Assembly: GCF_040054535.1 (NCBI RefSeq)
Contig: NC_090795.1
Span: 6,299,501-6,363,500, forward strand
Direction: 5' to 3'
DNA: 64,000 bases
Source: Antennarius striatus
Lineage: Eukaryota > Chordata > Actinopteri > Lophiiformes > Antennariidae
Shown: piece by piece, positions 37,521 through 47,569 of the stretch
Numbering within the stretch: position 1 is the first letter of the stretch
How the letters are laid out: each line of letters opens with the position of its first letter
Program-made: the position numbers and the translations under genes
The notes under the pieces: generated by a model
The model's input: the letters and a program-made list of their open reading frames with translations, nothing else
The model's database searches: none
What the model was told of the DNA's origin: nothing

Positions 37521-37645
37521 ATGGAATTGAGGAGCAACCAAAACCACGGCCAGTCACTGAACGTTACAATGTCATGTGACCAGCCTACCCAGAAAGAGGC
37601 AGGCCTAAGGGACACGATCAACTCTGTGTCCCAGCTAGTTTCCAG
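37521..37645 (+). CDS. Xin locus coding exon 1
   Basis: Starts at ATG 37521 ([10 protein letters not shown]) and ends in phase 2 before GTGAAA. The split Arg codon is completed by the first base of the next exon at 37751, giving QLVSRYQST across the junction. An in-frame stop lies upstream. Confidence 0.65.
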
Positions 37646-46600: not shown

Positions 46601-47569
46601 GGATTGCTTTAACAAGGCAAAAATTGGAATAATTCTATCATCAGTGAAAAAGTGGATCACAAATCAGGCCTGGCATGCACCCTTGTTCACTTAACCACTC
46701 TCCCTGGAATATGATCAAATTTGACATTATTCCAGGTAGAAGATGCTTTAAAGTTGTTTCCAGACATGAATGTTTTTCTTCCATTGATGATTTGTCCCAG
46801 CTTGAAGCTAACATCTGTAGTTTAGAGAGGACACTCTGTAAGCTTAAGGCTAACTTGTCCAAGCTCCAATTGTGCATATAGAACGTTTAGTTTTGTAAAA
46901 TATAAAGTATAAAATAAATTGTAAATATAAAATGCAAGTCTTTTTTTTTTTCAGCTGAAAGGAACATAATTTTATTTTGGGCACAATCACAACAATTAAA
47001 ATATCGGTAATTTAAAATGTGTACAATATTACATTCGAAATTTAAAGTTTATCGGAACAGCATTCATTTGGAGCACTGGTTCCCAAACTGGAATGTGACT
47101 TGATCAGGGGGAAATCTGATTTCAAATCTCAAATTAAACTTAAGTTAAATTGATTTTTATCCACAAAAGACATTTCTACTATTCCAACCAGGTGTGTGTG
47201 ATTCCATTTCACATTGAAGTGCAATACTGCAATTAGACAGTAATGAGCTATCATAAATACAACTTAATTTACAAAGAAAATGAATCAATTTAAAACTTGT
47301 ATACCCAAATAATGTTCTCTCATGTTAACTATAATGATAAAATATTTTCACTACCTCAGCCCTTGACTGAAACTGTAATTCAGAAACTGGTCATTTGCAG
47401 CATGAACAATTATGCACCTTTATATGGGGAATTCTACTGCATATTTCACTACCGACAATTGTTCAGAAGAAAAGGGAATTATGATGAGGGCTTTGGATAT
47501 ACTCAGCACAAGAACCAGTGGCTCCGAAAGAAAGCTGCTGACATGGCATCCAATGAGTCAGAGGCATAA
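37521..47569 (+). CDS. Xin-locus short isoform with LIM domain (spliced, 372 aa)
   Basis: Model by splice sites and phase: exons 37521-37645, 37751-37826, 37938-38282, 38605-38683, 39924-40069, 40871-40918, 46059-46189 and 47401-47569. Every junction has AG/GT borders and matching phase, and the 1,119 nt sum to 372 codons plus stop. The N-terminus contains LVSRYQSTVA, like the RYQAAVS block of XIRP2/LIMA1 proteins, then basic and Ser-rich stretches ([35 protein letters not shown]). The C-terminus is one LIM zinc-finger domain followed by KGNYDEGFG, a hallmark of the XIRP2/LIMA1 group. In mammals the XIRP2 splice form lacking the giant exon is required in hair-cell stereocilia; a similar actin-binding role is inferred. 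ATG 37521 has an in-frame stop upstream; further 5' non-coding exons are possible. No transcript was checked. Confidence 0.72.
37938..38282 (+). CDS. Xin locus coding exon 3
   Basis: 345 nt, phase 0 at both ends, after TTCTGCAG and before GTAAGG. Encodes 115 polar residues ([39 protein letters not shown]). LKALFESKP is weakly Xin-repeat-like (hydrophobic, FE, KP). Exon 2 is 37751-37826 and exon 4 is 38605-38683. Confidence 0.75.
39924..40069 (+). CDS. Xin locus coding exon 5
   Basis: 146 nt entered in phase 1 and left in phase 0. Encodes [15 protein letters not shown] and then an [16 protein letters not shown] segment resembling the short XIRP2 form. Preceded by CCTCTCCAG and followed by GTTAAT. 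Exon 6 (40871-40918) adds 16 residues and also ends in phase 0, so it can join either the giant exon or LIM exon 8. Confidence 0.72.
40131..40625 (+). repeat. unnamed interspersed repeat, copy C (intronic)
   Basis: Third copy of the 1024-1411 family, inserted in the 800-bp intron between Xin exons 5 and 6. It starts TTACATCCCAC and ends near TGTTGTGGGATGTTAC. It is longer because the central block (AGGAACC-GGATAAGATAGAAAGATGA, then GACCTTGACCTTG) is partly repeated in tandem, so the interior expands in monomers of roughly 120 bp. Confidence 0.75.
41253..45770 (+). CDS. xirp1: Xin actin-binding repeat-containing protein, giant exon (1,505 aa)
   Basis: A single uninterrupted frame. I chose ATG 41253 (MADDSK) because a TGTTCAG acceptor sits 5 nt before it and mammalian XIRP1 also starts MAD in one giant coding exon. 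The frame is open further upstream, and an in-phase acceptor at 41186 would allow fusion to exon 6. Family landmarks in order: [15 protein letters not shown] near the N-terminus; degenerate Xin repeats; [63 protein letters not shown] with [61 protein letters not shown]. Xin proteins bind and cross-link actin filaments at intercalated discs and myotendinous junctions of striated muscle. Length and landmarks fit XIRP1 (human about 1,840 aa) better than XIRP2 (over 3,300), but the paralogue call is by eye. Canonical repeats (G-D-V-x4-W-x-F-E-T-x-P-L-D) are nearly absent. Confidence 0.85.
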   Translation: MADDSKQRKGQSMSEDTSGAYVQPPIQSQVSREMLYKQRQKCELRRLLKHTHPELKTLDDVVDEEFAEVLSPEHDVTTGETGYEGEVLSRCLIFENSKKGSPCIAQRHVAKGTVEGGNVSITNAVYQEKEKRLCPESGREFMDDAKTLDSTQVPQSDCEREMMRNVQVTRELYESRPVNACSQHPKTKLQGNISLSGNGMEADQNQNQEFREESCQIENKNNLNVKSLDLTNLAHKQGSCVHIPDRSPDDEYSGREVFLNHETDFGLEATCLPNPENPGKMIKTRVDLLQNNPFIPTNIDREQSFEHTSKSPNSENNSPTAQDPLKANVKNRAYLFESMPFDKIKHQNKDDVETMVENMKETLHCLHRINAIHSGGSIIEVNETMIAKKALFTLSEDGPMIKYEEVAEGGAQNFILHLLPRANLNPHITYLKEDSGGAMKATVLNIPVQQHQYSMNQDKEFKTANVIQVIEDILNQDNSLRKGVIIQEGIDKCAEVLVYSLYQYFDDEDVKSYYPPQNTVYDEPEPKRDDVSKTDSQEVRKGVVGSTISCLLDTTKDQIYQESMRPVKIVKGNVKMFKSCIEKGDLEYLKNLHAEPAEEEQLIPQESVSGKHFELHHEPKDDQTEESRTEWVPVDVKKLRNMFSGGQGSTTLKQNACKHLAQSTAIPFAIPNQNTQRVVQTQRDSCNSADVPQGSGLHLKTQDNDRVHKAEIVEAVDDSDEILNLQTAMHILRQVTNEANSLHHSSQEKHLLLNEESSHGHDVDMKLVMVSKQSSEVTDTQQKDEEVVFQGKLQAALNSLEKSNINVTRGDFRAAMIYKHSSKLHNERSQNVDVSVEKRTKEDFCPPIEHKSDQAIASQDVNVNADPPSQSEDLKKDRCTILKKEERPTGPKPAIPPKPAHLKVTHRDSQSTNAKNPELTQTDPIKHKKPAPPQSSLMTLEDEHKSDQLKIYSNTSTLPDSTDLERHHLVYEDIVTSHEREVRHRVPGSILTLEVDNTDKTMINHQLEINMSGDEKSPDDFSVIEDMNQKHGSLVDYRDKCQKLEGEKTFSAKNAPVKPKRANISQSNNKNTKYISGVNDSTTLTNVFEESDPHGQNTDSKEKTEIKPECKVEIRGKKGRIETENERRQRLSVHMDEIMRGNMTAAMKIFDNLQKHEELQRILSKVEEIEQDTSMVDVKSLRGVFENVPDWIINSDKKKQNKIKVENKGEVRPLMRDNTESKSSMAHVFGDLERASEEIMNLKEQTLARLLDIEGAIKKALYSVSTLKSDSDIDGLSHLLKESLGTVKAPLSPSPSSISKISIGSSRTQSVPTQESPALQETTALPVSRVGSFDVDTAKQTSIPHSSPSFISIQSAARKMTETEDLPPETKLCPTCQQNTKTQEKFWTTKDLTCNSPAQNRQSTYNQLSPKRELSVLDVETEGKSIKGTKTVTENYERTDNLGNRIYSSKTSTIINAQPTTPATSQPGVGSATDSQQVPRSSSPNQSKTLTQPSTGEDCSLLARR
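41505..42284 (+). other. degenerate Xin-repeat region
   Basis: Repeat-like segments: [12 protein letters not shown] (41505-41540), [14 protein letters not shown] (about 41596-41637), [15 protein letters not shown] (41745-41789), [12 protein letters not shown] (about 42101-42136) and [17 protein letters not shown] (42234-42284). Only the last is near consensus. Human XIRP1 has about 16 repeats and XIRP2 more, in tight array; here spacing is irregular and the Trp is lost. Confidence 0.7.
46059..46189 (+). CDS. LIM-domain exon 8 (first zinc finger)
   Basis: After GTCTTCAG and before GTGAGA. Phase 0 from exon 6 it reads [16 protein letters not shown] and then [15 protein letters not shown]. The zinc ligands are C-x2-C, H-x2-C and C-x2-C, as in LIM domains. 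It ends with two bases (AG) that join the C at 47401 to make Ser. If entered instead from the giant exon at donor 45738 (phase 1), it is read in another frame that stops at 46150. Confidence 0.85.
46190..47400 (+). other. intron 8 with a possible inserted fragment
   Basis: 1.2-kb AT-rich intron. 46640-46881 is open on both strands (68 codons plus, 78 codons minus). The plus frame ends in a heptad-like segment ([19 protein letters not shown]). No splice sites support it as an exon; it may be a retro-fragment. Confidence 0.3.
47401..47569 (+). CDS. LIM-domain exon 9 (second half) and C-terminus
   Basis: Follows CATTTGCAG. Gives [19 protein letters not shown], which supplies the last C-x2-H zinc ligands, then [21 protein letters not shown] and a stop at 47567-47569. 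The KGNYDEGFG block is diagnostic of XIRP2/LIMA1-type LIM proteins. Confidence 0.85.

Follow-up and report, generated by a model that had tools for sequence, protein, structure and literature searches.

A 64,000-nucleotide stretch of the Antennarius striatus genome (positions 6,299,501 to 6,363,500 of NC_090795.1, chromosome C20; hereafter the window, in whose own numbering positions are given) carries a Xin-family gene in which six small exons, one giant exon and two LIM exons follow one another on the forward strand. This locus is very likely a second, ancient XIRP1 copy in a teleost, here called 'xirp1b', which has kept an old exon layout, has lost its Xin repeats and would make two proteins by splicing. 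Most likely it goes back to the teleost genome duplication and is the copy reported as lost, and a second teleost Xin-alpha (XIRP1, CMYA1) probably survives in this repeat-free form. Its closest kin is an XIRP1-type gene on chromosome C18 rather than the XIRP2-type genes on C12 and C24, as expected of XIRP1 by descent. A first-pass annotation of the window had described an XIRP1-like giant exon inside an XIRP2-like LIM gene; it had not foreseen that the genome has two XIRP1-type genes, this being the second, that the Xin repeats are lost or that a long domain after the LIM is absent.

Exon layout and predicted products

The six small exons, the giant exon and the two LIM exons lie where the first-pass annotation had placed them, and all introns between exons 1 and 9 (E1 to E9) are GT-AG. 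Coding starts at ATG 37521 in E1 (37521..37645, donor GTGAAA) and continues through E2 (37751..37826), E3 (37938..38282, 115 codons), E4 (38605..38683), E5 (39924..40069) and E6 (40871..40918). All were placed by splice sites and phase. E3 and E5 also reached codon scores of 25.8 and 8.1 in a crude gene scan whose table was trained on the window gene itself, its small exons and thus E3 included; E1, E2, E4 and E6 scored below the listing limit of 7. Exons E1-E6 are the weakest part of the gene model, resting on splice sites, phase and the E3 codon score, and 50-kb stretches of C18, C12 and C24 yielded no convincing counterparts of them. A link to the EPLIN N-terminus was not significant and was dropped.

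The giant exon (E7, 41248..45738) holds an open reading frame (ORF) of 1,531 codons from stop to stop, or 1,505 codons from its ATG at 41253. A candidate donor, CAG/GTGAAG, lies at 45739 (phase 1); if unused, the frame reads through to the stop at 45768-45770. Ending in phase 0, E6 continues the frame into E8, but joined at the acceptor 41248 it does not match the frame of the giant ORF, for which an ATG of its own is then needed. An in-frame join of E6 to the giant exon is possible through an alternative acceptor at 41187, which has a weak pyrimidine tract (8/17).

The LIM domain is split between E8 (46059..46189, first half) and E9 (47401..47569, second half and stop, with no long C-terminal domain). 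When the giant exon is skipped, E1-E6, E8 and E9 join into 1,119 nt that encode 372 residues and a stop, and the open frame is kept over six junctions from E1-E6 into E8. The perfect-phase skipping proposed in the first-pass annotation is thus borne out. The LIM domain scored above the Pfam cut-off (30 bits vs 22.9), its best solved relatives being LIMD2 (4.5e-26) and EPLIN (1.9e-23). Its eight zinc ligands were seen by eye in the joined exons, and the exon junction falls at the same position as in the C18, C24 and C12 genes. The product stops 16 codons past the last aligned LIM-tail residues (NQW...), unlike the C18 and C24 frames, which run on for hundreds of codons after the LIM and match the window's exon 9 in the LIM part only. 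The window gene has no C-terminal domain after the LIM of the kind found in the XIRP2-type short isoform.

E8 has a second open frame, which a join to the giant exon at 45738 would leave open for 30 codons. Through such a giant-to-E8 splice the LIM DNA would be translated in a different frame, which is what mouse XIRP2 is described to do, and the stop of this second frame (46059-46134) falls at the codons where the mouse XIRP2 text has it (TTTCATAA). At the threshold used, no donors that would copy this two-frame use of E8 were found near the ORF ends of C18, C24 and C12.

Splicing may thus pick one of two proteins by using or skipping the giant exon. Both outcomes are described for XIRP2 in zebrafish and mouse (PMC3280289, PMC10259482). 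The giant product, of about 1,505 residues and probably starting at its own ATG, would be an XIRP1-like scaffold with the post-repeat region and C-terminus retained. Filamin C is a candidate partner for its C-terminus, judging by similarity to the C18 gene; the filamin C site of human and zebrafish XIRP1 lies in the C-terminal part (PMC3280289, PMC2478706). The skipping product would be a 372-residue LIM protein ending soon after the LIM. The first-pass annotation had raised the idea of a hair-cell-type LIM isoform, of which the in-frame LIM product stands, while the hair-cell role itself becomes less likely here given the early end of the protein. In mouse XIRP2, localisation to strained actin was seen for the C-terminal domain on its own and not for the LIM domain (PMC10259482). 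Since this targeting lies in the post-LIM part, the C18 gene may be a better candidate than the window gene for a hair-cell-like XIRP1 product.

Kinship, Xin repeats and coding constraint

Relatives were sought in the host genome (548 Mb, 42 contigs). The giant ORF matched four loci, namely itself on C20, C18 (239, 80 and 48 bits), C12 (70 bits) and C24 (60 bits). With tblastn on the locus stretches, C18 reached 5e-111 against 3.6e-26 and 2.6e-24 for C12 and C24. The firm clustering of the giant exon with XIRP2 that the first-pass annotation had set against its XIRP1 identity did not appear, and no sequence kinship placing the window gene with XIRP2 was found among these loci. The LIM domains tell the same story in a ten-sequence tree, where ultrafast bootstrap (UFBoot) support was 95 for the window with C18, 85 for C24 with C12, 96 for C5 with C2 and 81 for the latter pair with human EPLIN. 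LIMD2 was placed with a support of just 38, and the few references from outside the genome were mouse XIRP2 exon 8 and the solved LIMD2 and EPLIN.

Two-exon LIM domains lie downstream of the giant exon at all four loci (C18, C20, C12 and C24). This supports a layout older than the XIRP1/XIRP2 split and indicates that XIRP1 in A. striatus keeps it, in agreement with the proposal of the first-pass annotation that an XIRP2-like LIM arrangement at an XIRP1-type locus is ancestral to both paralogues. The C18 gene, a locus that partly reads as N, itself combines LIM exons with a long post-LIM frame, unlike the descriptions of xirp1 as one large exon.

Typed queries for human XIRP1 and XIRP2 gave mixed support and were treated as a lead, not a test. 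The C-terminal block of the typed human XIRP1 matched C18 (8e-17) and the window (1e-15), with no match at C12 or C24 (best E 0.58), and the post-repeat part of XIRP2 scored 434 bits at C24, 396 at C12, 177 at C18 and 80 at the window. The full-length XIRP1 query, repeats included, scored highest at C24 (400 bits, against 259 at C12, 189 at the visible part of C18 and 70 at the window). Among peptides from zebrafish in-situ primers used as probes, those of xirp1 gave no good match; an xirp2a peptide with one assumed residue agreed at 8/8 with C24 and 7/8 with C12 and was not used.

Xin repeats are present at the C18, C12 and C24 loci, but Pfam reported none in the window's giant exon at E up to 1 or up to 10, while a typed repeat consensus used as a control scored 113.9 bits. 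A home-made profile of 38 repeats (17 from C24, 16 from C12 and 5 from C18), which favours its source genes, found 27 repeats above 0 bits at C24, 25 at C12, 14 in visible C18 and one (0.8 bits) in the window; the C18 count is a lower bound, since part of that locus reads as N. Shuffled versions of the window protein gave any profile hit in 63 of 200 cases, the best at about 0 bits. A Xin-repeat protein is defined by many copies of the 16-residue repeat, and some 26-28 are usual outside mammalian Xin-alpha (PMC2478706). By that definition the window gene, a likely XIRP1 descendant, no longer encodes one. Three Xin repeats are the minimum for actin binding (PMC2478706), and the giant product, having no recognisable repeat, should not bind or bundle actin in that way.

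The giant frame is nevertheless constrained. Over 1,320 codons aligned with C18 it shares 36% of residues without a stop, with identity at codon positions 1, 2 and 3 of 52, 59 and 30%. The best conserved block (44553..45092, residues 1101-1280) is 58% identical over 173 aligned residues, with codon positions at 71, 73 and 34%, and the C-terminal part is 38% identical over 194 residues. The old repeat region (residues 131-320) shows a weaker contrast (40, 56 and 36%), and the first 130 residues could not be properly aligned because their C18 counterpart is out of view. Near-random third positions in an unbroken frame indicate old divergence under protein constraint over most of the exon, and the giant frame shows neither of the pseudogene signs sought, a broken frame or a loss of codon constraint.

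Neighbouring genes and alternative readings

We take human 3p22 to hold CSRNP1, WDR48, SLC22A13, SCN5A and XIRP1, and 2q24 to hold CSRNP3, SPC25, SCN1A and XIRP2. CSRNP gave twelve matches at four loci (C24, C12, C20 and C2). On C20 it lies upstream of E1 at a distance of about 72 kb; on C24 and C12 roughly 40 kb and 37 kb separate it from the giant frames. WDR48 domain matches fell on C18 only, where the first visible Xin repeat is about 12 kb away, and the single SPC25 match is on C12, separated from the LIM exons there by about 90 kb. SLC22 genes lie downstream and on the opposite strand of both the window gene and the C18 gene, with 52% identity in the first exon, and the C12 and C24 stretches gave none except one spurious 20-residue match. 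Of the presumed 3p22 neighbours, the window gene thus has CSRNP and SLC22, and C18 has WDR48, a sodium channel and SLC22. Together with the presumed human positions, the neighbours identify C18 and C20 as the XIRP1 pair and C12 and C24 as the XIRP2 pair, in line with the XIRP1 identity given in the first-pass annotation. Two further markers added little: OSR1_C had seven matches, none on C12, C18, C20 or C24, and EXOG, uninformative, had no match anywhere in the genome.

The two SLC22-type transporters of the window, their ends read by eye, occupy 48803..51994 (copy A, a neighbour type shared with C18) and 55077..58782 (copy B) on the reverse strand. By eye, the members of this tandem pair (48803-58782) resemble one another more than they resemble the C18 copy, and a remnant third SLC22 first exon (MSSFEQILKETGEF...) lies between them at 52861-52965 on the same strand. 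Outside the gene and the SLC22 exons, the crude codon-score scan, trained on this gene, showed nothing convincing except repeats and a transposase-like remnant, and Rfam gave no match in the window. In the roughly 37 kb upstream (1-37000), which carry simple repeats, long CA/GT runs among them, that scan showed no convincing gene; a reverse-strand segment at 11998-12234 reads like a Tc1/mariner-type transposase fragment.

The exon layout invites another reading, in which the window gene is a derived XIRP2 copy, marked as such by its small and LIM exons, and the likeness to XIRP1 misleads. Small exons, a giant exon and a two-exon LIM in frame on skipping are indeed reported for xirp2a and xirp2b of zebrafish, and the LIM product made by skipping also for mouse short XIRP2 (PMC3280289, PMC10259482). 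The published description of zebrafish and mammalian xirp1 is a single large exon, unlike the window gene with its LIM exons (PMC3280289). The window gene has this XIRP2-type layout, and its E8 is open in a second frame too. In this genome, however, the layout is not diagnostic of XIRP2, since C18 shares it as far as the LIM. The giant exon and LIM of the window group with C18, which stands beside WDR48 and is the best relative by far, and not with C24 and C12; the neighbours CSRNP and SLC22 point the same way, and the window gene lacks both the Xin repeats and the long post-LIM domain of XIRP2. With C18 the window gene has in common its conserved block and C-terminus, and, as in XIRP1, an ATG of its own can start the giant exon. 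The mouse XIRP2 exon 8 sequence given in PMC10259482 shares 23 of 30 residues with C24 and 15 with each of the window and C18, and the remaining counts were 21 for human LIMD2, 20 for human EPLIN, 17 for C16 and C2, 16 for C5 and 14 for C12. This count alone is indecisive, given that C12, XIRP2 by its neighbours, agrees at just 14/30; what marks C12 as XIRP2 is the pairing with C24 together with its neighbours. A derived XIRP2 is already disfavoured and, in our view, very improbable.

The remaining alternatives would silence one of the two products. The giant exon could be decaying or dead and the gene work only as a small LIM gene, as the vanished repeats and the flatter codon positions of residues 131-320 might suggest. 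Such decay is hard to reconcile with 1,505 stop-free codons despite near-saturated third positions, or with the strong identity and codon contrast of the block at residues 1101-1280, and we consider it very improbable. Conversely, the LIM exons could be relics, never joined to the small exons, leaving the giant product only. For exons E1-E6 no homologue is confirmed, the codon scores are mostly weak and the joins are predicted from genomic sequence. That reading is very improbable given a LIM domain above its Pfam cut-off with all eight zinc ligands and a junction placed as in C18, C24 and C12, and given the frame that stays open from E1-E6 into E8.

Several observations weigh against the locus being a second, ancient XIRP1 copy. 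The sodium channel of C20 lies 6 Mb from the window, and that of C18 scored higher over its joined exons with SCN4A (288.8 bits) than with SCN5A (271.4 bits). RPSA, a presumed neighbour of human XIRP1, has its single match on C16, and the human gene places used here are themselves mostly presumed. The part of the typed human XIRP1 just after the repeats scored 66 bits at C12, 65 at C24, 63 at C18 and 41 at the window. The gaps of the C18 locus hide its small exons and N-terminus, and the age of the duplication is read from saturated third positions and shared neighbours in one fish genome.

Sodium channels and a proposed older LIM gene family

Single LIM domains of the same kind and with the same exon split also occur in genes on C5, C2 and C16. 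In this they resemble LIMA1 (EPLIN) and LIMD2; they differ from the window gene in having no giant-exon match. We take LIMA1 to lie with CSRNP2 and SCN8A at human 12q13, and LIMD2 with SCN4A at 17q23. All seven chromosomes with both LIM halves (C20, C18, C24, C12, C16, C5 and C2) have a sodium-channel match, and C22, with one weaker LIM match, has none. These channels lie about 49 kb from the C24 locus, 72 kb from C12 and 33 kb from C18, with further matches elsewhere on C20, C2, C5, C16 and C21. On C20, C2 and C16 the distances are 1.4 to 6.5 Mb, indicating linkage by chromosome only. The C16 match fell under the curated cut-off, and a match on C4 contains stops.

The C24 channel is SCN1/2/3/8-like. 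The first exon of the C18 channel scored 55.4 bits with SCN5A, 52.0 with SCN8A and 48.7 with SCN4A, and the C21 channel 264.9 bits with SCN4A vs 258.5 with SCN5A. The C18 and C21 channels group at 96 in a six-sequence tree, as SCN4A and SCN5A types might. By eye, the C20 and C18 channel exons were found alike. In zebrafish these sodium channels form four pairs (PMC12467315).

On balance we lean towards a history in which LIMA1, LIMD2, XIRP1 and XIRP2 are four copies, from two early rounds of vertebrate genome duplication (2R), of one LIM gene linked with SCN8A, SCN4A, SCN5A and SCN1A. The giant Xin exon would have been present before the XIRP1/XIRP2 split, and mammalian XIRP1 would have lost its LIM exons. 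The teleost Xin-alpha duplicate thought lost would survive with its repeats dropped, keeping a LIM product and a repeat-free scaffold. The 2008 Xin survey used Xin-repeat regions as queries; it reports one Xin-alpha in each of five teleosts and states that the other was lost (PMC2478706). A repeat-free copy would escape such a search. Among the matches listed in the open-licence literature, as far as the available text goes, neither a repeat-free teleost xirp1 nor an XIRP1 LIM isoform is described.

Survival of the repeat-free duplicate would mean that a Xin gene can persist without Xin repeats. Should LIM exons be present in xirp1 of A. striatus and other fish, a LIM protein would escape mutations that hit the giant exon only. 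A search for LIM products of XIRP1 in muscle and ear would best begin with the C18-type gene, which has a LIM and a long C-terminal frame, and turn to the window gene afterwards.

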